Origin: Kiritimatiellia bacterium
Lineage (GTDB): Bacteria > Verrucomicrobiota > Kiritimatiellia > RFP12 > UBA1067
NCBI GenBank assembly: GCA_017520845.1
Contig: JAFXEU010000050.1
Location: 1 to 34,637 of the forward strand
Length of the DNA stretch: 34,637 nt
Direction: 5' to 3'
This document shows positions 284 through 34,637 of the stretch, in pieces (position 1 is the first letter of the stretch; the number at the start of each line of letters is the position of its first letter). The position numbers and the translations under genes were made by a program. Below the pieces are notes generated by a model that saw only the letters and a list, made by a program, of their open reading frames with translations, ran no database searches and was not told where the DNA came from.

Positions 284-358
284 TGATATAAATTTGCGAT
301 AAAAGCGGCGCCTTGAGGATGGTTTTTTGAGGTGAGAATTTGATGCGGAAAATCTGAG

Positions 359-518
359 CGAATGCCGTGCTTTTATTTTGCGTTTTAAAGTGGTATAATT
401 GGTAGTGATGATGATGGATGATTATAAAAACTCTGATAACATTCAAAGCGTGGAGGGGTGCAAAATGATTTCACCCCACCACTCTCACCCCACCAATGGG
501 GTCCGACCCTCGGATTCC
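359..518 (+). repeat. Leader element, copy 1 (promoter plus short conserved reading frame plus CCCC/GGGG hairpins)
   Basis: About 150 bp closely similar to 2771-2930. In order it holds: GCTTTTATTTT; an extended -10 TGGTATAAT (TATAAT at 394-399); three ATG codons from 408; a reading frame beginning MMMDDYKNSDNIQ; a purine-rich GTGGAGGGG ribosome-binding-like stretch; ATG at 465; then the C-rich part CACCCCACCAATGGGGTC and GGGTCCGACCC, which can form small alternative hairpins. The frame from 465 ends at 539 after 24 codons, so here the element precedes no long gene of its own. The DUF4139 gene follows with a separate promoter. The region 257-611 otherwise shows no gene. Confidence 0.75.
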
Positions 519-611
519 AACCCTCGGATTCCAATTTGAAATGTCGAATGGACAAAGAGGCGCGTGAAGCCGATACGACAAAATTGGGGAACCTCCAAAG
601 AGGAAATGCCG

Positions 612-2770: not shown

Positions 2771-2935
2771 TGGATGCGAACGCCGCGCTTTTATTTTATG
2801 CGTTAAAGTGGTATAATTGGCAACGATGATGATGGATGATTACAAAAACTTTGATAACTTCCAAAGGACGGAGGGTTGTAAAATGATTTCACCCCACCAC
2901 TCTCACCCCACCAAAGGGGTCAGACCCGTGGATTC
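2771..2935 (+). repeat. Leader element, copy 2 (upstream of the GTPase island)
   Basis: Shares TTGGATGCGAACGCCGCGCT with the left flank of the IS30 element, then GCTTTTATTTTATGCG, TGGTATAAT, a reading frame MMMDDYKNFDNFQ from 2826, a GGACGGAGGG ribosome-binding-like stretch, ATG at 2883, and CACCCCACCAAAGGGGTCAGACCC, able to form CCCC/GGGG or GGGTCAGACCC stems. Differences from copies 1 and 3 in the short frame are often at third codon positions (TAT/TAC, GAT/GAC, GAG/GAA, GGG/GGT, TGC/TGT), a mild sign that the peptide is translated. It ends where the zinc-ribbon fragment begins. Confidence 0.8.
2789..2817 (+). promoter_or_regulatory. Extended -10 promoter in leader copy 2, likely promoter of the island
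   Basis: TGG-TATAAT with the hexamer at 2812-2817; the -35 position at 17-nt spacing is TTTTAT (2789-2794), a poor match, as expected for an extended -10 promoter. The first ATG of the short reading frame begins 9 nt after the -10, the same distance as in copies 1 and 3, so the transcript would be leaderless or nearly so. It is the nearest good promoter upstream of the co-directional genes from 3058. Confidence 0.5.
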
Positions 2936-2938
2936 TAA

Positions 2939-3031
2939 TATTGTCCTGTTTGTGGACATGAATGGTATAGCCCATATTGGGATAATTACTGCCCACAATC
3001 CGGTTGTACTGGCACGCCTAAACAAATGTAA
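2939..3031 (+). pseudogene. Truncated zinc-ribbon fragment, relative of the C-terminus of the 3563 gene
   Basis: Frame 2939-3031 encodes 30 residues starting Y-C-P-V-C-G-H-E-W-Y-S-P and ending Y-C-P-Q-S-G-C-T-G-T-P-K-Q-M. It matches the last 30 residues of the 3563-3952 protein (Y-C-P-V-C-G-H-T-W-Y-A-P ... S-G-C-L-G-H-P-K-E-L). Nucleotide similarity is also visible, for example GTTTGTGG and ATGGTAT. A TAA directly precedes it and leader element copy 2 abuts it, so the 5' part of the ancestral gene was lost. The longer frame through 2817-3038 reads this DNA out of phase and is not a gene. Confidence 0.7.
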
Positions 3032-3057
3032 AACTTAATCCAAAGGAAGGAATAGTC

Positions 3058-3510
3058 ATGTGTGAAATTGATGATATGGTTGGTCTTGATAATCTCGAAT
3101 CGACAGACTGTATTGACGAAACTCCATTAGGATGTTCATCCGATACATTATTAAGGTCCAATGAGCCTATGGCAACTGAAAGTCTACTTGTCGATTCAGG
3201 GGTGGACACAATGATAGATTTCTCGTCACCGAAAGGTGATGCGGGTGCATCTCATACAATTAGCTTTGGCGCAAATTTGGATGTAGATAAATACAATGAA
3301 TTAGCGAGGCAAAAAGCAGAGGCGAATACTGTCCTTAAAGAAACCAGTAGTGACACTGAATTTCTTGATGCTTTCAAGCGAAGAGAAGATGCTCAAAAGG
3401 AGGTGAATGAAATGCTATCAAATTCCGATGAGTTTAAGAACTGGAGCGATACCATTGATCGCAAGATAGATGCCTGCCTTGATCCATTGAGAAGAAATGG
3501 AATTCTTTAA
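3058..3510 (+). CDS. Small acidic hypothetical protein, first gene of the GTPase island
   Basis: 150 residues from ATG 3058, preceded by AAAGGAAGGAA (3042-3052). I do not recognise a family. The first 80 residues are acidic and rich in Ser/Thr/Asp (start M-C-E-I-D-D-M-V-G-L), probably disordered. The second half (about 90-145) is charged and helical, rich in Lys/Glu, with a likely coiled coil. No signal peptide or membrane segment. It starts a run of nine same-strand genes; the next starts 52 nt downstream and encodes another acidic protein, suggesting paired small adaptor- or substrate-like proteins. Function unknown. Confidence 0.7.
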   Translation: MCEIDDMVGLDNLESTDCIDETPLGCSSDTLLRSNEPMATESLLVDSGVDTMIDFSSPKGDAGASHTISFGANLDVDKYNELARQKAEANTVLKETSSDTEFLDAFKRREDAQKEVNEMLSNSDEFKNWSDTIDRKIDACLDPLRRNGIL

Positions 3511-3562
3511 TGAGCATGCACCTCTATATAGACAGATTGTAAAAACAAAAAAGGAAATCAAG

Positions 3563-3952
3563 ATGAATGAGATTTTTGATGATGATCTCTCGGCATCGAT
3601 GGAAGCCGGAAAGCAGATGTCTTCAGATGCTGATGTTGTAGCCACACCTGAAGAAGACCCGATAGTAGGTAGCGCATCAGATGGTTTGTTGCAAGATGAC
3701 GCCCTTTTAGCAGCAGTCTCGCCTGAATCGGATTTCTCTGCTGAAGATTCTGCAAGTAGCCAGAATGCCGGACAAGACATGGGTGACAGGGTAAGAGCCG
3801 AAAATGATCAAAATGGCGATGGCCATAATGTGAGCTTTCGTGGTTCAATGCACCATTTTTACTGTCCAGTTTGTGGGCATACATGGTATGCTCCAGGATG
3901 GCCATCTTATTGCGAGAAATCTGGGTGTCTTGGACATCCTAAGGAACTCTAA
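3563..3952 (+). CDS. Acidic protein with C-terminal zinc ribbon
   Basis: 129 residues from ATG 3563, chosen because AAGGAAA (3551-3557) lies just upstream. The frame is open to an ATG at 3497, but that start overlaps the previous gene and has no good ribosome-binding site. Residues 1-85 are acidic and low in complexity (E-D-D, D-A-D, S-A-E-D-S runs), likely disordered. The C-terminus, about residues 98-129, is a compact zinc ribbon: C-P-V-C-G-H-T-W-Y ... Y-C-E-K-S-G-C, four cysteines as C-x2-C and C-x4-C. The same ribbon is present as an orphan fragment at 2939-3031. A short ribbon on an acidic tail suggests a binding or recruitment role, but no function is known. Confidence 0.7.
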   Translation: MNEIFDDDLSASMEAGKQMSSDADVVATPEEDPIVGSASDGLLQDDALLAAVSPESDFSAEDSASSQNAGQDMGDRVRAENDQNGDGHNVSFRGSMHHFYCPVCGHTWYAPGWPSYCEKSGCLGHPKEL

Positions 3953-3982
3953 GGAGCGCGTAACCTCAAGGAGCAAGAAATC

Positions 3983-5245
3983 ATGGATCCATTTATCACA
4001 TACGCTGGGATTAACATTGTCAAGTCCATTGTTGACGGATTCCAACAAAACAAGCGAAGCCTTATTCAACAAAACTTTCAGCAGGCTGAAAATGAGGCGT
4101 CAAGAGCTGCACAAAGAGAAAACATCCTTTTGCAGTTACAAGCGCAAAGAGAACGCGACGCCCTATCATTTGAAAATCGTCTTTCTGAGCATGATTATCT
4201 ATCAACGATTCAGAATGTCTGGCCCTTGACAATACATCCAAGAGAGTACAGCAAACTTTTTCATCCCGACAAAGATGGTCGTGTGCCATTTAACATTCTT
4301 ATTGACAATCGCATACAAAGTCCTATGGGGTGTCTATGCGATTCCTTGTGGTCGGAACTGGCACATGGGTTGACTAATTGCTTTGGGGTAGATCGCCCAT
4401 ACCAGTTTAATTCAAATGCATTCACAAAGGCCGCAAGTGTTGCTGGAATGGAAATTTCTCTTTTGCGCGAATATTCAGAGCATATCCCAACCCTTGTATT
4501 AGTACCGGTCTATACTGAGTCCGAATTGTGCCTAACGGCACATGCATGGGGGGGAGGGATGGGATATCAAACCGGAAGCATTACGATTCCAATATGGCAA
4601 TTGAGGATAGCAGAAGCACGTAAAATAGCTCATGATTATGTCACCCGTTTTGAAAAAGCAAAAAAAGCAGGATTAAAATTGCCATTTGATGCAAAGGTCT
4701 CGCAATATGTTGAAATGTTCCGACAAGAAAAGGAATTTCTTGATAAGGGTATGACTACAGAAGATTGTTCACGGTTAGACATCTATGAAAAATTAACAAT
4801 GATTCCACCCCCGAATGAAGTCAGTAAAATTGAGAAAGAGGTTTATAAAAATGTAGCTCATTTATTGGCTCATCAAATACTGCTCCCAGTTGGACAGATT
4901 GTAGATTCGTATTTCATAGAAGGATTTGGAATGGCACCTCGTTTGCCATTTGTCTTATCGGAGTCTGGAATTAATAAAACTGAAGGTGAAGAAATCATTT
5001 CTCGTTATGCTTTGTCGCTACTTTCCGACATGAAGAACGGGCAGAGTCTAGTTGGAGAAGATCAGCTGAATGAATTTAAGCGAAGTATTCGAGATGCTGG
5101 TTTCCAAGAGTTATACGGTAGTCCGGCGATAGCGCAACTTAATTACTCGGAAGTTAATTCAGAACCATCTTCCCCGCCGGTACCTGTTGTTGGCTGGACT
5201 AAAACAATCCCAACGAGCACTCCTACCCGTAGGCGATTTGTATGA
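3983..5245 (+). CDS. Island protein with N-terminal coiled coil, unknown function
   Basis: 420 residues from ATG 3983, with AAGGAG at 3968-3973. I do not recognise the family. Residues 1-20 are mildly hydrophobic (M-D-P-F-I-T-Y-A-G-I-N-I-V), possibly an amphipathic membrane-touching helix. About 20-75 is Gln/Glu/Arg-rich and should form a coiled coil. About 80-370 is a globular mixed region with an H-A-W-G-G-G-M-G-Y glycine loop near 190 and several helices. The last 30 residues are Pro/Ser/Thr-rich and end in R-R-R-F-V. It ends 16 nt before the first GTPase and so is very likely co-translated with it. It may act as a partner or scaffold for the GTPases; this is inferred only from position. 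Confidence 0.75.
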   Translation: MDPFITYAGINIVKSIVDGFQQNKRSLIQQNFQQAENEASRAAQRENILLQLQAQRERDALSFENRLSEHDYLSTIQNVWPLTIHPREYSKLFHPDKDGRVPFNILIDNRIQSPMGCLCDSLWSELAHGLTNCFGVDRPYQFNSNAFTKAASVAGMEISLLREYSEHIPTLVLVPVYTESELCLTAHAWGGGMGYQTGSITIPIWQLRIAEARKIAHDYVTRFEKAKKAGLKLPFDAKVSQYVEMFRQEKEFLDKGMTTEDCSRLDIYEKLTMIPPPNEVSKIEKEVYKNVAHLLAHQILLPVGQIVDSYFIEGFGMAPRLPFVLSESGINKTEGEEIISRYALSLLSDMKNGQSLVGEDQLNEFKRSIRDAGFQELYGSPAIAQLNYSEVNSEPSSPPVPVVGWTKTIPTSTPTRRRFV

Positions 5246-5261
5246 GAAAGGATCAGTCTCC

Positions 5262-6191
5262 ATGAAAGTAATGATGATTGGTTTAAGCAGAGCTGGAAAA
5301 ACATCGTACATGGGGGCGATGTATAAACGCTTTGAGGAGGGTATTGGAGGGTTCTCAATAAAAGCCATCAACAGCGAAGATGGACGGGCCTTGCAAAAAA
5401 TAGGAAATAATTTGTCGAAAGGCATTTATCCAGGGAACACAGATATTCGCTCTGAGTATAAATTCAAATTGCTCTATGAGAACTCAGAACTTATGGAGTT
5501 CGATTGGACAGATTACAGAGGCGGCTTGTTGGTTGATTTTAACAACGAAAAGGAACTCGACAAGTGGGAATGTGAGTTGCAAAGCGCAGACGCTGTTATC
5601 GCGTTCCTTGATTCTTCGGCGATGGATAGGCGGACATCCGTAAATAGGTACTCAGGTTTCTCGCAGATGGAGGCAATTTCAGACCTAATAACGAGGGTCG
5701 CCAGTTCTCATAGCGATAACGAGGCGTTTCCAATTTCATTTGTGATGACCAAAATAGATGCGCTTAAGGACAACAAGATCGAGGGCGATGAGTGGGAACA
5801 ATTGGGCGAACTTATGAAAGATGTCGCATCTTCCAAGAATATTCATGGTATGTTAACGGGTACTGTTGTTGGGAAAGAGTGTCTTAACATTGAATGGCCC
5901 TTCCTCATGTCTATGGTTTTTGGTTTGAAAGGTAAAATCGCTAGAGTTTGTGCTGAAGCAGATGCCTTAAAAGACAGAGTTAATGACTGTATTGAAAACA
6001 CAAGTATTTGGGATGATATTTCTAGTTGGTGGAATGACGAGCCGTCATATCGTTCGATTGCGTATGATAATGCTGTCGAACTCCAGAAAAAGGTCAACAG
6101 GCTTATGGCTTTAAGTACACCAACAGACTTGCTAATTGATCTGCTGAAAAAGGTCTCGGCGGATGAAGATTTCTTCATGCATCTTTTTTAA
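5262..6191 (+). CDS. P-loop GTPase, first of a pair
   Basis: 309 residues from ATG 5262. The frame is open to 5187 inside the previous gene, but M-K-V-M-M-I-G is the natural beta-1 start and AAAGGA (5247-5252) fits. Walker A/G1 G-L-S-R-A-G-K-T is at residues 7-14; a possible switch I Thr at 60; G3 D-Y-R-G at 84-87; G4 T-K-I-D at 163-166. This is the order of a TRAFAC-type small GTPase. About 110 residues follow, mostly helical and charged, probably an interaction region. No membrane segment. A second GTPase with the same N-terminus follows after 15 nt. The pairing recalls the DO-GTPase1/DO-GTPase2 double-GTPase families described in bacterial conflict systems (from memory; not searched). Confidence 0.85.
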   Translation: MKVMMIGLSRAGKTSYMGAMYKRFEEGIGGFSIKAINSEDGRALQKIGNNLSKGIYPGNTDIRSEYKFKLLYENSELMEFDWTDYRGGLLVDFNNEKELDKWECELQSADAVIAFLDSSAMDRRTSVNRYSGFSQMEAISDLITRVASSHSDNEAFPISFVMTKIDALKDNKIEGDEWEQLGELMKDVASSKNIHGMLTGTVVGKECLNIEWPFLMSMVFGLKGKIARVCAEADALKDRVNDCIENTSIWDDISSWWNDEPSYRSIAYDNAVELQKKVNRLMALSTPTDLLIDLLKKVSADEDFFMHLF

Positions 6192-6206
6192 ACAAGGAGA
6201 GTCAAA

Positions 6207-7256
6207 ATGATGAGAATAACCATGATGGGGTTTAGCAGGGCTGGCAAGACTTGCTACCTATATGCAATGGCTGCAAGAATGTCAAAAGGGCAATATGGTT
6301 TTAGATTCATACCTGACAACCATCGGAAGTCCTTGTCGTTGAATCGTTGTTGGAATGAAATGAAGCCGCAATTCAACCCAGACAATGGCACACTTGTCAG
6401 GCAAGGCGTTTGGCCTGCGGGAACAGGTGAATCTGATGAGATTGTGTTTAGGTTTGTATATGGGACTAGAAATCTGACATATTTTAGTTGGTATGATTAT
6501 AGAGGCGGTATATTAGATTCCGAATCAGAAAGCGATGAGAAAGATTACAATAAGTTTGTTGAGATCGCTTCAGAATCGGCATGTATCATTGTGTGTATTC
6601 CTGCAGAAATGTTACAGGCTTATATGCATGGTGACAGCATGGCCGAAAGCAGATTAAACATTATTCTTGATGATTTGACCAAATACAGAGAATCACGCAA
6701 TGATTATGTTCCCGTGACATTTGCTATTCTTAAAGCAGATCGTTTGGCGCCCGGGGAGTTCTCTCGCGGGGTAAAGGCTATTCGTGAAGGTGTGTTTGCG
6801 CCATTGTTTAGTCAGGACGAAAACTGGCTGTTGATGTTTGTTGGTGTTAGTCTCGGCAAGTTTGACCGTAACCAAGGAGATATTGATCCCAAAACGCATC
6901 GTCGTTTTATAAATGGTACATTAGAACCAGTTAATGTGGAACTCCCAGTGTTCTTTGCGTTTTATTGCAAACTTAAGGATGCTGTGCGAAGTAAGAATGA
7001 AGAAATGAATAAAAACGCAAACGCACAAGACATAGCAAAAGGTAAATTGCAGACATATAACTCACGTACAATATTTGGGCGATGGTGGCATGGGGATGAA
7101 GCAAAGGCTGCTAAAGCAGAATTGGAGGAGTTGGCTAAAGACAGTGGATTGATAGCTGCTGATTTGCAAAAACTTCAAGTTGACTTCTCTCATGTCACCG
7201 AGGCATTATTGGATGGAGGTTATGTCGAAATATGGAACAAGGGGGAGAAGTTATGA
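6207..7256 (+). CDS. P-loop GTPase, second of a pair
   Basis: 349 residues from ATG 6207, AAGGAGA at 6194-6200. G1 G-F-S-R-A-G-K-T is at residues 8-15, nearly identical to the first GTPase; G3 W-Y-D-Y-R-G-G has D-Y-R-G at 97-100. The G4 position reads L-K-A-D (175-178), not [N/T]-K-x-D, so guanine recognition may be altered. A helical Lys/Glu-rich C-terminal region spans about 250-345. The two proteins are paralogous but clearly diverged, which favours hetero-dimerisation or sequential action over recent duplication. The stop overlaps the next start (ATGA at 7253-7256), implying translational coupling to the Sel1 membrane protein. Confidence 0.85.
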   Translation: MMRITMMGFSRAGKTCYLYAMAARMSKGQYGFRFIPDNHRKSLSLNRCWNEMKPQFNPDNGTLVRQGVWPAGTGESDEIVFRFVYGTRNLTYFSWYDYRGGILDSESESDEKDYNKFVEIASESACIIVCIPAEMLQAYMHGDSMAESRLNIILDDLTKYRESRNDYVPVTFAILKADRLAPGEFSRGVKAIREGVFAPLFSQDENWLLMFVGVSLGKFDRNQGDIDPKTHRRFINGTLEPVNVELPVFFAFYCKLKDAVRSKNEEMNKNANAQDIAKGKLQTYNSRTIFGRWWHGDEAKAAKAELEELAKDSGLIAADLQKLQVDFSHVTEALLDGGYVEIWNKGEKL

Positions 7257-8590
7257 TTAGTTTTGAACCGCTGATCTATACACGAACTAAGAATGTTGAT
7301 TATCGTTTTGTAGCCACTCCACAGGCTCTTAAAGGTTCTCGATGCTGGGATTTTGTTGAACATCATATTAGAATGGTTCTTGCTGATGAAGGAAGCCGTG
7401 GCCCTCTATTGGGACGTAGGTGGCATATAATGAGTATTGATGGGTATTTACTTATAGGTATTGCCACATATGAGTTTGAGAGACTGGACTACACTGGATG
7501 TCCCATTAGGGGGTATTATGGTATATTGCTGAAGTCTGTTGTTGAGGTGATGCCTTCATTGGAACTGTTTAGACAACTTGATAGGACATTCGTCGATCCC
7601 ATTTTTAATGACATATATGCATCAGGAAGTACATGGGAAGATAATGTTGAAAGTATTGCATTTCTTGGACAAAATGGTAGCGTAAGCCATGAAAGCCCTA
7701 TCGATTTTAATCACGATGAAAAATGCGTAAGGTTTTTTGATGATTTTGTTATTGATAGCATTTTGCCGAAAGCTTATGATGAGGCGATTAGATGCGTAAA
7801 ACAGAAGCGAACTTTTGAATTTGTTTGGGGGCTGAGTAGTCGTTCTCACGCTAAAGAAGTTCCGTTCATGAATGTGGTTTGTCTTGAGATGAGAAATCAA
7901 GGTGGGCAGAAGGGTGTGCATATCGATAAAAACCTTTCCACGCCCTCTGATCAATCAAAGAACTTCTCTACGGCTAGTATGTCTACAATTGGTAATGCGG
8001 AAAATCTTACTGACGAAGTTGTAGGCAAAAATCAACGTGATACAAGCTTAAAGCATTTAATTGATCTTGCCAATTCGCCCAATACGTCTAATCCACCTCA
8101 AGGGCGTTGTGAGGATAAAAATAAACCCTGCATCAATGATACTGAAGAACAAAAAGCAAGAATTGAGCGTAGAAAGAAATTACTAGGCCTTGCTGATGCG
8201 CAGAATGTCACGGAATCTAAAACAAATGATGAACGGGCAATTTCTTTATATAAAATGGCATTAAATAGTTATCATGAAGGTGATTATAGTAATGCAGCAA
8301 AGCTGTTTAGACAAGCGTCGGACTGTGGTTTAGCAGATGCAACTGGCAAATTGGGTGAGTGTTATATGCGAGGTCATGGTGTAAAAAGGAATTGGAGAAA
8401 AGGATTAAGTTTGTTGCGCGAGGCGGCTATCAACGGATCTGAATTCGCAAAAGTATTGTTGAGATCCATAAAAAAGACGCTTGCTATTCTTGCTGTATTC
8501 ATAATATTGTGTCTTTCAATAGGCTTTATGTTTTGGCCTGATACCTCAAATGCTAGTGTGCCAAACAATCCTAACAATCCGACACCATGA
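7253..8590 (+). CDS. GTPase-associated protein with Sel1 repeats and C-terminal membrane anchor
   Basis: 445 residues from ATG 7253, with GGGGGAG at 7241-7247 and a 4-nt ATGA overlap with the GTPase gene. The first about 190 residues form a globular domain (G-R-R-W-H-I ... R-G-Y-Y-G-I-L-L). It is faintly reminiscent of the GAP1 N-terminal domains found next to conflict-system GTPases; this is low confidence. About 210-325 is a polar linker. About 330-400 holds two Sel1-like repeats (A-A-K-L-F-R-Q-A-S-D-C-G-L-A-D-A-T-G-K-L-G, then K-G-L-S-L-L-R-E-A-A). Near 410-428 is one hydrophobic helix (T-L-A-I-L-A-V-F-I-I-L-C-L), then a short polar tail, so it is a tail-anchored inner-membrane protein. 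It could be the membrane output or sensor of the island. Confidence 0.75.
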   Translation: MISFEPLIYTRTKNVDYRFVATPQALKGSRCWDFVEHHIRMVLADEGSRGPLLGRRWHIMSIDGYLLIGIATYEFERLDYTGCPIRGYYGILLKSVVEVMPSLELFRQLDRTFVDPIFNDIYASGSTWEDNVESIAFLGQNGSVSHESPIDFNHDEKCVRFFDDFVIDSILPKAYDEAIRCVKQKRTFEFVWGLSSRSHAKEVPFMNVVCLEMRNQGGQKGVHIDKNLSTPSDQSKNFSTASMSTIGNAENLTDEVVGKNQRDTSLKHLIDLANSPNTSNPPQGRCEDKNKPCINDTEEQKARIERRKKLLGLADAQNVTESKTNDERAISLYKMALNSYHEGDYSNAAKLFRQASDCGLADATGKLGECYMRGHGVKRNWRKGLSLLREAAINGSEFAKVLLRSIKKTLAILAVFIILCLSIGFMFWPDTSNASVPNNPNNPTP

Positions 8591-8604
8591 GGTAATTCGC
8601 CAAT

Positions 8605-9090
8605 ATGAAGATTCAATGTCTATCAAGAAAATGGTTTGAGACAATCAAGGGGACTGTGCTTGAGGAACAAGTATTGACTCACAATAAGATTGTGTCCATC
8701 CAGTCGCGAAGCGGATGGGATTCTGAACCGCCATTTTCTGACGAGGCATTGAAGTCTCCGAATCTACTTTGCCTCACATTCGACGATGTAACAGACTACT
8801 CGGAGTTATACGATGGAGAGAAGATAGCCAGATTCCGACCTGTTATGGCGCAAAAGATTCTGCGTCATGTTGGACATGGAACTTGGCCTGTCCTTATTCA
8901 CTGCACTGAGGGCGTTTCGCGTAGCGGTGCTGTCGCCAGTGTCCTTGATCACTACTGGAACTTTGTCTGGGACAAGAAGCCGGAAGATCACGAGTATTTC
9001 AAGCGCGTAAATCCAAAGATTTCTCCCAACCCAGTTGTGGAGGAGATTTTTATGGAATACATTGAAAATGGGTTCATGGATGAGCCGTAA
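8605..9090 (+). CDS. Cysteine-based (dual-specificity-like) protein phosphatase
   Basis: 161 residues. The signature H-C-T-E-G-V-S-R-S lies at residues 99-107, an exact HC-x5-R-[S/T] loop with nucleophile Cys100 and phosphate-binding Arg106, preceded by the hydrophobic strand P-V-L-I. An upstream Asp in T-F-D-D-V-T-D (58-64) could be the general acid. Length and layout fit the compact dual-specificity-like phosphatases common in phages and mobile DNA. It starts 14 nt after the Sel1-anchor gene with a weak ribosome-binding site, and its stop overlaps the next start (TAATG), so it belongs to the island's operon. The substrate is unknown; tyrosine or serine phosphate on an island protein, or a nucleotide or phospholipid, are all possible. 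Confidence 0.85.
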   Translation: MKIQCLSRKWFETIKGTVLEEQVLTHNKIVSIQSRSGWDSEPPFSDEALKSPNLLCLTFDDVTDYSELYDGEKIARFRPVMAQKILRHVGHGTWPVLIHCTEGVSRSGAVASVLDHYWNFVWDKKPEDHEYFKRVNPKISPNPVVEEIFMEYIENGFMDEP

Positions 9091-9647
9091 TGAGTGACAA
9101 CATGAAACAATGCGATTTATTCGCGTCGCAAGAGCGACAATCAGATGAAGTGCCTCCGCCGATTGGTGTGTACATGCCGATTCCACAAGAAGATCGAGCA
9201 CACCATTGGCTAACGAAAGAGCGACTTTTCTCTGAGATAGAGTTTTGTGATACAGTTTGTCCGATGCGAGAGAAGGACGGGACGCTTCATCTAATAGCGC
9301 AGGAATTGGAATCGGCGGATTTCGTTCCGAAGAACGGCACAGAGCAGATAATACAATTTGACGAAGACGAACAGCTTGTTTTATGGGAGGCATTCTGTCC
9401 TGACTGGCAAGTCGCTGATGTTCTGGCGGCATATCGTTTCGCGTCTGACTGGATGACACGCCATCCCAAAGATACAGTCATTGTAAATGAGAAATCACGA
9501 AGGATAGTGTGGCGTCGTTCGTTGGATACAGTGTGGGTTGACGAGCAGGACGATATGGAGGTTCTTTCGGATCGCTTTATTTACGATGGAATTAACGACT
9601 CAATAGAATGTCTCAATGCCGCACAGCTTGCGCTTGGCGGGTTTTGA
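9090..9647 (+). CDS. Hypothetical protein coupled to the phosphatase gene
   Basis: 185 residues; the ATG at 9090 shares its A with the phosphatase TAA (TAATG), so translation is coupled. No family recognised, no signal peptide, no membrane helix. The protein is acidic with many aromatic residues (H-H-W-L-T-K-E-R, L-W-E-A-F-C-P-D-W-Q-V). The central part, about 85-125, looks like a pair of helices. The tight coupling suggests it binds or regulates the phosphatase; this is inference from position only. Confidence 0.65.
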   Translation: MSDNMKQCDLFASQERQSDEVPPPIGVYMPIPQEDRAHHWLTKERLFSEIEFCDTVCPMREKDGTLHLIAQELESADFVPKNGTEQIIQFDEDEQLVLWEAFCPDWQVADVLAAYRFASDWMTRHPKDTVIVNEKSRRIVWRRSLDTVWVDEQDDMEVLSDRFIYDGINDSIECLNAAQLALGGF

Positions 9648-9718
9648 AATAGGGCTACGAAAAATAGTTGGGACAAATAGGTCAACGAGATTTTAAAAAC
9701 TAAAAGGAGATGAGAACA

Positions 9719-10741
9719 ATGAACTACAACAATGCCATGGCTACCACGCTATTTGTGGGTATGATTGCATTCAATGTAGATGCTACTAACTCAATCGGCA
9801 ATACCAATCATGACACGGATAAGACAAAAATCCAAACTGTGACTGTCGAAACAAAGAAACGATTGCGGCCCGGTGGCGACAGTGCTTCAAAAGAAACGAC
9901 GGAGATAGACATAAAGAGAGCTGAACGCTATCGCAAGGCGGCAGAGCAGGGAGATATCGAGGCATGTGAAATGCTTGGTTGGGAATATCAAGATAGTGAC
10001 AAGGCGGAAGCCGTGAAGTGGTGGTGCAGGGCTGGCAGTAGAGGATCGGATATGATGAAAGCCGTTCTTCGGCTTATGTATCACGGCGAAGAATGCGCAT
10101 TAATATATAACACGGCTGGTGACATGACGGCGACAGGAAGATGCCCATTGCCTGATTCAACCGATCCTCTTGCTTTTCGGGTGGAGTGCGGAAGAAGAGC
10201 CTATATTGACAAGTGGCTTGGGTTTTCAGAACCGAATTGGGAGCCATTTCCCACATTGGCGGCAGTCACGAATGCGACAGGTCTCAAACTCAACTTCGCG
10301 GAGAGGTTCGAGGCTTTAGTAAAAGGCAAGATGGGATTCTTTTCAGACGGAGGAATTCACTGGACGGAGGATGGCACGAACGGGCTTTCTTTCGCCGATA
10401 CGACAGTTAAGATTCGTGAGGCGCAACTTAAGTGCGTAAAGGAAATGATGTATGGTAGGACTATAGCAAATAAAGCCGGTACATCTTGGGTGCTCAACGA
10501 TGATTTTACATTCGGTTACATGCCTTGGCATGATATGGGGCGCAAAGATATGGAGTTGTATGTTTTTTCCATTCGCCATGAAATGAACGGCAAGCCTCCC
10601 AAAGCATGTGTACTTGTGTCATTCGCCCCAACGCAGTTAATGTCAGATTCAATCACAGGAGCATTTCTTGGCGATGAAACGGCAAAAGCAAACTTAAAGG
10701 CGTTGGAGAAAGCTGGTATAGTCACAATCATGGATGATTGA
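9719..10741 (+). CDS. Secreted Sel1-repeat protein, last gene of the island
   Basis: 340 residues from ATG 9719. AAGGAG (9704-9709) stands 9 nt upstream, whereas the in-frame ATG at 9710 directly abuts it, so 9719 is preferred. A signal peptide is likely (M-N-Y-N-N-A-M-A-T-T-L-F-V-G-M-I-A-F-N-V-D-A). Two Sel1-type helical repeats occupy about residues 68-125 (Y-R-K-A-A-E-Q-G-D-I-E-A-C-E-M-L-G-W-E-Y, then A-V-K-W-W-C-R-A-G). The remaining 210 residues are an unrecognised globular domain. Sel1 repeats mediate protein-protein contacts. This is the second Sel1 protein of the island, but on the far side of the membrane from the GTPases. The 71-nt gap before it may allow separate expression. Confidence 0.7.
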   Translation: MNYNNAMATTLFVGMIAFNVDATNSIGNTNHDTDKTKIQTVTVETKKRLRPGGDSASKETTEIDIKRAERYRKAAEQGDIEACEMLGWEYQDSDKAEAVKWWCRAGSRGSDMMKAVLRLMYHGEECALIYNTAGDMTATGRCPLPDSTDPLAFRVECGRRAYIDKWLGFSEPNWEPFPTLAAVTNATGLKLNFAERFEALVKGKMGFFSDGGIHWTEDGTNGLSFADTTVKIREAQLKCVKEMMYGRTIANKAGTSWVLNDDFTFGYMPWHDMGRKDMELYVFSIRHEMNGKPPKACVLVSFAPTQLMSDSITGAFLGDETAKANLKALEKAGIVTIMDD

Positions 10742-11096: not shown

Positions 11097-11130
11097 AATA
11101 GGTAGAGGGGACTGTCCCCATTGGCGATAA
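11097..11130 (+). repeat. REP-like palindromic repeat, copy B
   Basis: Identical over 33 nt to copy A (2468-2500), with palindrome GGGGACTGTCCCC at 11107-11119 and tail ATTGGCGATAA. Copies A and B flank the AT-rich GTPase island almost exactly, one on each side and in the same orientation. Confidence 0.8.
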
Positions 11131-11409: not shown

Positions 11410-11528
11410 TAGGAAATTCGCGAGGGGGCGCGAGGCGCGGCGAAAGGGCTTACTAGGGAAATTAAAAGGCTCTGCAAGGGAAAAGTCGAGTCCTTACTAG
11501 GGAAAGTAAAAGTCCTTACTAGGGAAGG
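11406..11528 (+). repeat. TTACTAGGGAAA direct repeats, four copies
   Basis: Copies at 11406, 11450, 11494 and 11516. The first is TTACTAGGAAATT and the last three are TTACTAGGGAA followed by ATT, AGT and GG. The third and fourth are both preceded by GTCC. Spacing is 44, 44 and 22 nt, so the copies sit on a 22-nt grid. Confidence 0.65.
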
Positions 11529-11532
11529 CTCG

Positions 11533-11594
11533 AGTCATAGGTATGACTAGGGGTGAGTCATACCTATGACTAAGGGGGAGTCATACCTATGTCT
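11533..11594. promoter_or_regulatory. Array of three 16-bp palindromes with a 23-bp period
   Basis: AGTCATAGGTATGACT (11533-11548), AGTCATACCTATGACT (11556-11571) and AGTCATACCTATGTCT (11579-11594). Each has 7-bp arms around a GG or CC centre, and the first two are exact reverse complements of each other. The exact 23-bp spacing suggests a cooperative operator or iteron-like protein-binding array, or a strongly folding RNA. No neighbouring gene clearly uses it. Confidence 0.5.
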
Positions 11595-11691
11595 CATTTT
11601 GGGTGGTAAGTGTATCGTAAATTTAGGTATACTATGGCTATTTAGTGGTTAATTCTTTGTGTAAGAGGGGGGATAATGAGGATGGTTGGAT

Positions 11692-11705
11692 GCGAACGCC
11701 GCGCT
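11692..11705 (+). repeat. Left 14-bp direct repeat flanking the IS30 element
   Basis: GCGAACGCCGCGCT, identical to 13066-13079. It is preceded by TTGGAT exactly as in leader copy 2 (2770-2789), so this flank is the start of leader copy 3, separated from its remainder by the insertion. Confidence 0.8.
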
Positions 11706-11797: not shown

Positions 11798-12847
11798 TTA
11801 TGCGGCTTTGTTGTAGGCTGTGTCATATTCATAGGCGGTTTTTCCATCAAGTAGCTTTCTATGAATCGAGTTGATGATCTTTTCAAGATGGTGTATTTCT
11901 GCGGTTGTGCACTTTGCGAAATCGGTTCCTTTGGGATACCATCTGCGTACGAGCTTGTTGCAGTTTTCGACGGAGCCTTTTTCCCATGATGCATAAGCAC
12001 GCGTGTAGTAGACATTGCAACCTACAACGGACTTGATTTTATCTGGATCCAAAAATTCACAGCCGTTATCGGTTGTGATGGAGATTACATTACTAATAGC
12101 TTTTCGAGCAATCATCCGTTTAAGTGCGGCTACAACATCATCTTGTGTTACGTGTGCTAAAAGCTCAATTACGTAACGTCTACTCTTACGGTCAATGAGT
12201 ACAAGTAGACCTCCTCTACCGCTTGTAGATGAGACGATTGTGTCCATCTCATAATGGCCAAATCTGCTGCGTTTTTGGGCTCCTGCTGGACGATCATTGA
12301 GCATTAGTCGACCAGGAACGGTCATAGCTGGATGCGCTTTCGGTCGTTTCGGCTTTTTCTTTGGATGATAAGGCGTTTGACCGTACCTAACACCGACATC
12401 TCCAACGTTGATGTGTTTGTACCATGTCGAGAGGCATGGGATACGTTGGCCCGGCATTTCTTTCTTTATATGGCAGATCGCATCATATGGAGAGAGTTTT
12501 TCTTCAAGCACATGTTTCTTGAAGAGAAATGCCATTTTATTGGTTACAAGCATTTTCGTCCCTTTATTTTCGTTGTTCTCGTTAATTTTGTCTTGTGCGA
12601 CAAAAGGGTCGTATTCGCAGTATTTGCGTCGTCGTCTGTCTTTAGGGTCTGCAATCGCAAATCCCGTAGCTCCCCTTAGGTATTCCCGCCTCCATGTTTC
12701 GTATCGTAGACCATGCTTTGCGGCGAATTGTCGCAATGTTATCCGACATCCTGAATTGATAATCTTGTTCCAGTCAGCGGCAAGAATTTGTCTTTGCTCA
12801 AATGTTAGGTGTTTTCCTGGTACGTGTTGTGTGATATAATTTCTCAT
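11798..12847 (-). CDS. IS30-family transposase
   Basis: 349 residues from the ATG whose first base is 12847, chosen because AAAAAAGGA stands 6 nt upstream. A longer frame to 13024 adds 59 low-complexity Lys/Arg residues with no ribosome-binding site. The N-terminal helix-turn-helix region H-L-T-F-E-Q-R-Q-I-L-A ... F-A-A-K-H-G is typical of IS30. The DDE catalytic core is complete: first Asp in H-Y-E-M-D-T-I, second in T-T-D-N-G-C-E-F, and Glu in S-W-E-K-G-S-V-E-N-C-N. The full length matches family size, so the element may still be active. It cuts and joins DNA at the terminal inverted repeats. Confidence 0.95.
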   Translation of the reverse strand: MRNYITQHVPGKHLTFEQRQILAADWNKIINSGCRITLRQFAAKHGLRYETWRREYLRGATGFAIADPKDRRRRKYCEYDPFVAQDKINENNENKGTKMLVTNKMAFLFKKHVLEEKLSPYDAICHIKKEMPGQRIPCLSTWYKHINVGDVGVRYGQTPYHPKKKPKRPKAHPAMTVPGRLMLNDRPAGAQKRSRFGHYEMDTIVSSTSGRGGLLVLIDRKSRRYVIELLAHVTQDDVVAALKRMIARKAISNVISITTDNGCEFLDPDKIKSVVGCNVYYTRAYASWEKGSVENCNKLVRRWYPKGTDFAKCTTAEIHHLEKIINSIHRKLLDGKTAYEYDTAYNKAA

Positions 12848-12932
12848 GGCGTCCTTTTTTGTAGATGGGTGATTTTGTTTAGCAGCTTTCATCATACTAC
12901 AAATTGCGACGCCTTTGTTATTTTTTCGCGCG

Positions 12933-12950
12933 ACGCCCCCATGGGGGCGT
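12933..12950. other. 18-bp perfect palindrome inside the IS, upstream of the transposase
   Basis: ACGCCCCCATGGGGGCGT is fully self-complementary. It lies between the right end of the IS and the transposase start. On RNA entering from outside it would form a strong hairpin ahead of the transposase gene, as other insertion sequences do to stop read-through expression; that role is inferred. Confidence 0.5.
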
Positions 12951-13065
12951 TCCTTCCTTCGTTTTTCCTTCTTTTTTCGTTCTCTGTCTTTTTTCTTCAG
13001 AGCATCCTTTCGCCACCTCGACAACTTACCTTTCCGATTTGACTCATTTAATTGTACAACTTTCG

Positions 13066-13172
13066 GCGAACGCCGCGCTTTTATTTTATGCGTTAAAGTG
13101 GTATAATTGGCAACGATGATGGATGACTATAAAATCTCTGATAACTTCCAAGGAGTGGAAGGTGGTAAAATG
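13066..13172 (+). repeat. Leader element, copy 3 (left half), driving the L,D-transpeptidase gene
   Basis: Starts with the right 14-bp direct repeat GCGAACGCCGCGCT (13066-13079) of the IS insertion. It continues TTTATTTTATGCGTTAAAG, TGGTATAAT (TATAAT at 13102-13107, TTTTAT at 13079-13084 in the -35 position), a short frame MMDDYKISDNFQ from 13116, and a GGAGTGGAAGGTGG ribosome-binding stretch. Its final ATG (13170) is the start codon of the L,D-transpeptidase. The C-rich second half of the element is missing here but appears after the gene, at 13865-13925. Confidence 0.8.
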
Positions 13173-13883
13173 AAAAAAACGATTGCAATTGTAATCGGCC
13201 TGTTTGTCGCGGCGGCGGCGTTATTAGCAGGCGGTAAAGCGATTGCTAAAGTATCGAGGCACACTGTCGAAAGTCGTATTACTGCAATTCTCAAGAAGAA
13301 GCCTCATCTAAAAGAGGCTGCAAAAATCTCGGGCGGGAAGCTTAGAATACTGGTTTTCAAAAATGAGCGCCGCGTGGAGGTTCATGCTCCAGGATGGAAG
13401 ACTCCTCGTGAATATGCGATGACGGCTTTTAGTGGAACATTGGGGCCTAAATTGCGTGAAGGCGACTTGCAAATACCGGAGGGCGTATATGGAATCGCGT
13501 ACCTAAATCCCAATTCGAGATTTTATCTGTCTCTTAAGGTTTCGTATCCGAATGCGTCTGACAGGGCTCGGGCGAAGGCGGATAAGCGAGTAAATCTGGG
13601 CGGCGATATAATGCTCCACGGAAAGGCGGTGACGATAGGTTGCGTGCCGGTCGGTGATGATGCGATCGAGGATATATTTTATCTTGCGCATGCGGTAGGT
13701 ATACGGAACGTTTCGGTTATTATTGCGCCATACGATATGCGTAAAGGCCGCAATCCGGAACTGGAGCGCTCGCCGCTTAAGTGGTACCCGGATTTATGCC
13801 GCGAAATCTACATTGCTTTGTGCGGCGCGGCAAAGCTTTACGGACAAGACGATACGTTCAAAGAAAGAAGGGGCGTAAAATGA
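13170..13883 (+). CDS. Exported L,D-transpeptidase family protein (YkuD/YafK-like)
   Basis: 237 residues from ATG 13170. The frame is open to 13107 through the leader element, but M-K-K-T-I-A-I-V-I-G-L-F-V-A-A-A is a standard signal sequence. L,D-transpeptidases form 3-3 cross-links in peptidoglycan or attach proteins to it, working in the periplasm with a catalytic Cys. The signature is present: M-L-H-G-K-A-V-T-I-G-C-V-P, with His150 and Cys158. A preceding P-E-G-V-Y-G-I and N-P-N-S-R-F-Y-L-S-L-K-V-S-Y-P follow the YafK-type layout. The gene lies between the two halves of the leader element, and its stop codon is formed within the second half. Probably transcribed from the element's own promoter. 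Confidence 0.85.
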   Translation: MKKTIAIVIGLFVAAAALLAGGKAIAKVSRHTVESRITAILKKKPHLKEAAKISGGKLRILVFKNERRVEVHAPGWKTPREYAMTAFSGTLGPKLREGDLQIPEGVYGIAYLNPNSRFYLSLKVSYPNASDRARAKADKRVNLGGDIMLHGKAVTIGCVPVGDDAIEDIFYLAHAVGIRNVSVIIAPYDMRKGRNPELERSPLKWYPDLCREIYIALCGAAKLYGQDDTFKERRGVK

Positions 13884-13925
13884 TTTTGTCCCGCCATTCC
13901 CACCCCGTCAACGGGACCATCGAAT
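13865..13925 (+). repeat. Leader element, detached right half
   Basis: AAGGGGCGTAAAATGATTTT, then GTCCCGCCATTCCCACCCC and GTCAACGGGACC. This lines up with copy 1 from GAGGGGTGCAAAATGATTTC through its C-rich hairpin part; here CCCG-TCAA-CGGG forms the stem. It directly follows and overlaps the end of the L,D-transpeptidase gene. Confidence 0.65.
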
Positions 13926-13955
13926 GTTAATAAAAACACAAAAGGATTGCCTTTA

Positions 13956-27328: not shown

Positions 27329-27362
27329 AATAGCTTGGGGGAACTGTCCCCATTGACGATAA
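27329..27362 (+). repeat. REP-like palindromic repeat, copy C
   Basis: AATAGCTTGGGGGAACTGTCCCC then ATTGACGATAA. There is one extra A in the palindrome centre and ATTGAC in place of ATTGGC. The left part AATAGCTTGGGG is shared with copy D (34412). Confidence 0.7.
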
Positions 27363-34378: not shown

Positions 34379-34637
34379 TCAATGGCCTTCGCCGACAGCG
34401 TTTCGGATTTTAATAGCTTGGGGGACTGTCCCCATTGGCGATAATCCTATTTCGAATAACTCATGCGCTGTTTCATAGCAAATTGCGCGGCGTTCGTTCT
34501 CGGATAAGGGAAGTTTAAGAAACTCTGAAATAACAGCAGCAGGATCTTGCCACGGAGCATCTGTTCCAAATAGGATACGATTTGCTCCGTGCATTCGAAT
34601 CATCCTGAAAATCTGTTCGTTCGGCATCCAGAAAAAT
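34379..34637 (-). CDS. Amidohydrolase (Amidohydro_2) C-terminal part, partial, runs off right edge
   Basis: About 85 residues visible; the frame is open past the window's right end, so the internal ATG at 34627 is not a proven start. A-N-R-I-L-F-G-T-D-A-P-W is the hallmark of metal-dependent amidohydrolase-2 TIM barrels, where the Asp binds the catalytic metal. The helix L-S-E-N-E-R-R-A-I-C-Y-E-T-A-H-E-L-F is the usual C-terminal end. The last 20 or so codons (L-S-P-M-G-T-V-P-Q-A-I-K-I-R) are simply the translated REP copy D and its flank, so the natural C-terminus was replaced by repeat DNA. It is convergent with the beta-helix gene, 11 nt apart. Confidence 0.75.
   Translation of the reverse strand, partial: FFWMPNEQIFRMIRMHGANRILFGTDAPWQDPAAVISEFLKLPLSENERRAICYETAHELFEIGLSPMGTVPQAIKIRNAVGEGH
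34412..34445 (+). repeat. REP-like palindromic repeat, copy D
   Basis: AATAGCTTG then GGGGACTGTCCCC (34421-34433) and ATTGGCGATAAT. It overlaps the 3' end of the minus-strand amidohydrolase gene. Confidence 0.8.

Follow-up and report, generated by a model that had tools for sequence, protein, structure and literature searches.

A dispersed promoter unit with a putative leaderless, translationally coupled fore-cistron in a few gut Kiritimatiellae

Leaderless small open reading frames (ORFs) that end at the start of the next gene more often than expected have been described in mycobacteria, where the linkage outlasts the sequence of the peptide (PMC4633059). The leaders described here are similar in that their stops overlap or abut a gene start in excess and their peptide is not kept. 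The mycobacterial frames lie at individual genes and are reported with RNA and ribosome data (PMC4633059); here, in contrast, one homologous unit recurs before unrelated genes of another phylum, frequently with a REP-like tail, and it is known from sequence only. A leaderless bicistronic design has been engineered in Corynebacterium glutamicum, in which translation of the fore-cistron and the Shine-Dalgarno (SD) sequence are reported to be both needed for strength (PMC10367133). The present element likewise has a putatively leaderless fore-cistron with an SD for the next gene; unlike the man-made design it is natural, and its coupling is something that we infer. Mobile promoters are a concept of Matus-Garcia 2012 and van Passel 2014, as cited in PMC8049555; the present unit differs from them in also bringing a start codon, a mini-ORF and an SD. 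The mobile promoter and the leaderless coupled small ORF are already known kinds, and their combination is the point of interest.

The window (the whole stretch of DNA analysed, 34,637 nt) forms contig 43 of G000, a draft genome of 2.74 Mb. The first-pass annotation had listed three copies of a leader element in it, at 359, 2771 and 13066, and all three are there; the first two are 86% identical across 163 nt. The element at 2771-2935 is one of 18 long copies, defined as matches covering at least 130 of the 153 positions of a profile model: eleven are in G000, four in G001 and three in G025. Counted genome-wide, blastn finds 31 places in G000, and the profile, built from 17 long copies, has 27 matches there, 18 in G001, 10 in G025, three in G014 and one in G024. 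The promoter pattern, with up to two mismatches allowed, occurs at 16 sites in G000 and at none reversed. It is present in five of the 61 genomes of the genus (16, 12, 7, 2 and 1 sites), again never reversed; the single site in G073 is probably unrelated. Eight named records match the tail pattern: five are titled Kiritimatiellae (yak or sheep gut), two uncultured Verrucomicrobia and one uncultured bacterium. The best reading is that the element is a unit found in a few gut Kiritimatiellae.

Three separable modules can be distinguished across the copies: A (the promoter), B1 (the leader up to its second ATG) and B2 (the palindromic tail). Their positions in the window are given in Table 1. Module A, alone or with the leader, is found at 44 sites in the stretches fetched; its left side is joined to several different sequences, and it also stands before genes without B1 or B2. 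Module B2 is found without A or B1 as well, in places ending a shortened gene. Two of the three window copies have the tail, which consists of CACCCCACC repeats and a GGGGTCNGACCC palindrome. The copy at 13066 has only promoter and leader, followed directly by a YkuD-like gene. Copy 2 abuts a zinc-ribbon-like gene that is truncated at its 5' end, and the gene after copy 1 (DUF4139) has its own promoter.

Table 1. Parts of the element copies and adjoining features in the window
Feature	Position	Strand	Remarks
Copy 2 module A	2771..2825	+	GC block and TTTTATTTTA, then extended -10 TGGTATAAT at 2809-2817
Copy 2 expected transcription start	about 2824-2826	+	Predicted
Copy 2 module B1	2826..2885	+	Leader ATG 2826, SD GGAGGG 2870-2875, in-frame second ATG 2883-2885
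Copy 2 module B2	2886..2940	+	CACCCCACC repeats and GGGGTCAGACCC palindrome; REP-like tail, also solitary elsewhere
Copy 2 full leader ORF	2826..3038	+	70 codons; stop 3036-3038, 22 nt upstream of the next gene's ATG 3058
Zinc-ribbon-like gene 3' fragment	2942..3031	+	29 codons plus stop; 62% identical to the C-terminus of ORF 3497-3952
Copy 1	353..520	+	A, B1 (ATG 408, second ATG 465) and B2; leader stop 537-539
Copy 3	13066..13173	+	A and B1 (ATG 13116), in frame with YkuD-like gene at SD-led ATG 13170
B2-type tail	13854..13930	+	Provides the last codons and stop (13881-13883) of the YkuD-like gene

Module A points into genes. The next ORF of at least 90 codons is co-directional at 40 of the 44 A sites and opposite at one; the other three are at contig ends, which leaves 40 of 41 judgeable sites facing a co-directional gene. 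Comparison of 37 downstream proteins yields one related pair (44%) and one 22-residue match, the rest being non-homologous, so the promoter is common to unrelated genes. Near-identical promoter repeats upstream of non-homologous genes within one genome are one mark of a mobile promoter, and the A copies show it. The downstream genes are mixed, and include GH28, GH2, rhamnosidase, phosphoesterase, GDSL, NAD synthase, UvrD helicase and HNH genes, which rules out a regulon promoter for a single gene type. Signal-like N-termini are more frequent among the downstream proteins than among neighbours (28/37 versus 60/121, P 0.004) by a crude score for which the UvrD helicase is a visible false positive. 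The description of the element as a portable expression leader is supported, in that it is dispersed, lies before non-homologous genes and is nearly always aimed into them. The dispersed unit very likely works as a promoter.

An ATG usually follows the promoter at a short distance. In the window, TGGTATAAT is followed by 8 nt and then by ATG at 408, 2826 and 13116; the A of the ATG is the ninth base, which agrees with the "exactly 9 nt" of the first-pass annotation. An ATG at offset 8 is found in 11 of 21 A copies in G000 and in 14 of 21 in its relatives. At TGNTATAAT sites outside module A in the G000 stretches (294 kb), ATG stands at offset 6 in 4 of 41 and at offset 8 in 6 of 41, against a background of 0.015 per position. 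In the whole genome, TATAATN5-8ATG occurs 192 times versus 98 for TATAATN15-18ATG. The first ATG is usually 8-9 nt past TATAAT, the same spacing as in apparently leaderless genes of G000, and the -10 box of the element falls within the 6-9 nt ahead of the start codon that mark leaderless coupled small ORFs. Some A sites lead directly into a gene at the spaced ATG (L041, L040:7183, L144 and L145). In the relatives, several ATGs spaced in this way after extended -10 sites outside module A open genes which we take, from their N-termini, to be those for transketolase, lysyl-tRNA synthetase and RsfS. The DUF4139 gene of the window has a similar layout without module A: TGCTATAAT (within 633-701) is followed by 6 nt and ATG 648, and the reading frame stays open to an SD-led ATG at 699. 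Leaderless genes in bacteria are described as marked by a TA-like box about 10-12 nt ahead of the start codon (PMC3160421). This spacing, together with the apparently leaderless arrangement of other genes, supports the earlier proposal that transcription starts at or next to the ATG, and such a start is what we would predict. The pattern suggests that leaderless starts are common in Kiritimatiellae; a limited literature search found no report of this.

Each window leader has a frame of about 18-20 codons (MMMDDYKNSDNIQSVEGCKM from ATG 408, MMMDDYKNFDNFQRTEGCKM from ATG 2826 and MMDDYKISDNFQGVEGGKM from ATG 13116). The ribosome-binding stretch and second ATG (465, 2883 and 13170) that the first-pass annotation had noted come next, and this ATG is in frame. 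In four of 22 aligned leader rows the frame is interrupted by an indel or by loss of the ATG (L034_10544, L034_10733, L032_2805 and L135), so the sign that the first-pass annotation had named as refuting, stop codons or frameshifts in the short frame, is present in part. With these four and three rows in which the B1 end has diverged (L129, L136 and L138) left out, 15 copies with intact frames show 44 distinct changes: 13 synonymous, 30 non-synonymous and one stop. Several synonymous differences do exist, as the first-pass annotation stated, but they are no more frequent than chance: random placement of the same changes gives 10.3 (P 0.19). Third positions hold 17 changes versus 16.4 expected in the same 15 copies. 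Since neither excess is present, the peptide is not detectably conserved as a protein, and selection at the protein level is unsupported.

The position of the leader stop appears to matter more. In 10 of 20 leaders it lies within -10 to +5 of the gene start, versus 4.06 expected from frames entering the SD-led starts of other genes at equal distances (P about 0.002, among copies that are related and hence not fully independent). Taken alone, seven of the 13 copies bearing B2 are coupled, where the control rate is 24% (P 0.018); the alternative frames of these same copies are coupled in 4 of 26 (Fisher P 0.017). A narrower interval of -5 to +2 holds five of the 13, a weak excess (P 0.058). Because the -10 to +5 interval was fixed after the offsets had been inspected and the gene starts were hand-picked, the clustering of stops is suggestive rather than settled. 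Stop and start overlap as ATGA in L032:1699, L032:17911 and L130 and as TAATG in L127; G001:C120, a copy found later and outside the count, also has its leader stop at the ATGA of its gene. Among the 10 uncoupled leaders, eight stop 14-63 nt upstream and two continue in frame. Several leaders are in frame with their gene, among them those of the YkuD gene at 13170, L045:8467, L138:5941 and L128:2943. In L129, L135, L031, G001:C120 and the YkuD gene, the gene begins at the SD-ATG end of B1.

The coupling test excluded copy 359 (gene with its own promoter), L033:14098 (ambiguous start), L034:10733 (another copy follows), L036 (no clear gene), L136 (opposite gene), L139 and L132 (contig ends), L032:19680 (gene unclear) and the leaders in frame through B1 (13066, L045 and L138:5941). 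The in-frame B2 copies L128 and L034:10544 were kept and scored as uncoupled. In two of the 13 B2 copies, L034:10544 and L032:2805, the first-ATG frame is broken and the frame of the second start was followed.

On balance, the element of these few gut Kiritimatiellae is best explained as a dispersed promoter unit of mobile type that carries a leaderless fore-cistron coupled in translation to the next gene; the unit probably acts through this mini-ORF. The extended -10 promoter would start RNA at or adjoining the ATG, and ribosomes should therefore load on the mini-ORF without a leader. The mini-ORF would pass over an internal SD site and either continue in frame into the cargo gene or stop at its start codon (ATGA, TAATG or similar), so that ribosomes would be delivered to the cargo gene by translational coupling. 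The sequence of the peptide would be incidental; promoter, ATG spacing, SD and stop position would be what matters. In the long copies a REP-like palindrome, B2, is joined after the second ATG. The stops at gene starts are suggestive of a layout that is retained while the peptide is not. If this explanation is true, a promoter repeat can bring along its own translation start, which removes the usual obstacle that a relocated promoter yields RNA without a good ribosome site. The element would then be a naturally occurring equivalent of the engineered leaderless bicistronic cassette, and would indicate that coupling can persist while the peptide drifts freely.

A simpler explanation, less probable in our judgement but the strongest of the rivals, is that the element is only a dispersed promoter repeat, in which A is used and the mini-ORF is incidental to copied ATG-rich DNA. 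The lack of protein-level conservation would be expected from it, as would the presence of A before genes without B1; B1 is as diverged as A (0.164 versus 0.158), and half of the leaders are uncoupled. It does not explain why stops cluster at gene starts beyond the control, why the ATG spacing is that of leaderless genes, or why the end of B1 serves as the gene start in the five cases listed above. A bolder version of the coupled fore-cistron is doubtful: the element would be a self-spreading natural leaderless bicistronic leader, which makes its recipient gene both transcribed and translated and in which deletions of variable length in the REP tail set the exit frame and so the stop position at each new gene.

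It is improbable that the copies are debris, that is, the decayed 5' end (promoter and N-terminus) of a once-duplicated gene, hit by a REP, spread by rearrangement and now functionless. Gene fragments do lie at the borders (the YkuD gene cut by B2, the zinc-ribbon fragment after copy 2) and some copies are broken; however, orientation towards genes is near-perfect, the -10 is intact in distant copies, and leaderless genes start directly on A at the four sites named above.

Module B2 is REP-like: it is a palindrome dispersed between genes, and the genome carries Y1 transposase genes. It resembles the REP/RAYT palindromes (PMC8049555) in that it contains the palindrome GGGGTCAGACCC and also occurs in solitary copies, with Y1 transposase genes in genome and genus. 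It differs from them in that the intact RAYT of G000 that was examined (C45:117054) is flanked by another palindrome, GGGGACTGTCCCC, rather than one of B2 type; a B2-type palindrome stands beside one RAYT fragment, in G031. No signature of transposition was found. In 15 copies there are no target-site duplications, the longest string common to both flanks being 6 nt, and no inverted repeats are listed at the element ends; the absence of both speaks against a MITE. A search at C45 and C112 found no clean empty site, since the apparent match at G014:C60 is another common repeat (GTAGCCGCAAAGGACGCAAAG).

The borders of the copies suggest repeat-associated rearrangement. In one comparison across species, of C102 (G000) with C310 (G025), the crossover lies inside the -10 region of two promoters, with about 2 kb deleted or inserted. 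Other breakpoints lie before CCAAAG, inside B2 or at a REP, and some cut genes. The window YkuD-like gene ends in the B2 tail and its 95% identical G025 homologue runs on past that point, so the window gene is truncated; the idea of gene cassettes bracketed by the element, for which this gene was the candidate, was dropped. The 5' end of the G025 relative is cut by another palindrome. Spread by recombination at repeats is favoured over transposition. Integron-like cassettes, with genes exchanged at the element by a dedicated recombinase, are very unlikely: genes of high identity in G000 and G025 do have different neighbours, with the switch at or close to element edges (DUF4139 98.5%, YkuD 95%), and X-A-Y in G000 corresponds to X-element-Z...Y in G025, but the breakpoints fall at different points, some within genes, and lack target-site duplications. 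The DUF4139 region (534-2467) is the part 98.5% identical to G025; the next gene there is the YkuD relative, which in the window is 10 kb away.

The first-pass annotation had also suggested a leader-peptide attenuator with alternative CCCC/GGGG stems. These stems are part of the REP-like palindrome, which is also found without promoter or leader. In the consensus fold the SD pairs with the first CCCACC by five pairs, none changed on both sides; covariation in a two-helix model is no better than in shuffles, and the fold z-scores of four copies (+0.4, -2.5, +0.9 and +1.1) show no consistent excess folding. The element contains no terminator-like site, the window matches no Rfam family, and the peptide lacks a run of any one regulatory codon. 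Control of the downstream gene by ribosome movement that switches these stems is hence hardly credible: in most copies the SD could pair with the first CCC.CC stretch, but folding, covariation, the missing terminator, the unconserved peptide and the functional mixture of downstream genes all speak against it, and the suggestion is abandoned.

The window contains further genes and repeats near the copies. A gene group at 3058-10741 encodes a double-GTPase-like protein (DO-GTPase1/2) and gives a weak match to Sel1; nine proteins were compared with the PADLOC models and none matched. A gene for an rve-type transposase (11798-13024, minus strand) lies between two copies of GCGAACGCCGCGCT, at 11692-11705 and 13066-13079; module A thus harbours an insertion element that has this 14-nt repeat at both ends. 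The right end of the rve insertion element has a 49-nt, 78% match that abuts an A copy in G025 (L127). The stretch 11449-11595 holds tandem and inverted repeats, with CTTACTAGGGAAA units and GAGTCATA palindromes; matches to it are also found near A copies in L037, L032 and G025:C310. Four window copies of a second palindrome family, in which ATTGGCGATA comes after GGGGACTGTCCCC, lie at 2468-2500, 11097-11129, 27329-27361 and 34411-34443; this palindrome also flanks the RAYT gene of contig 45.
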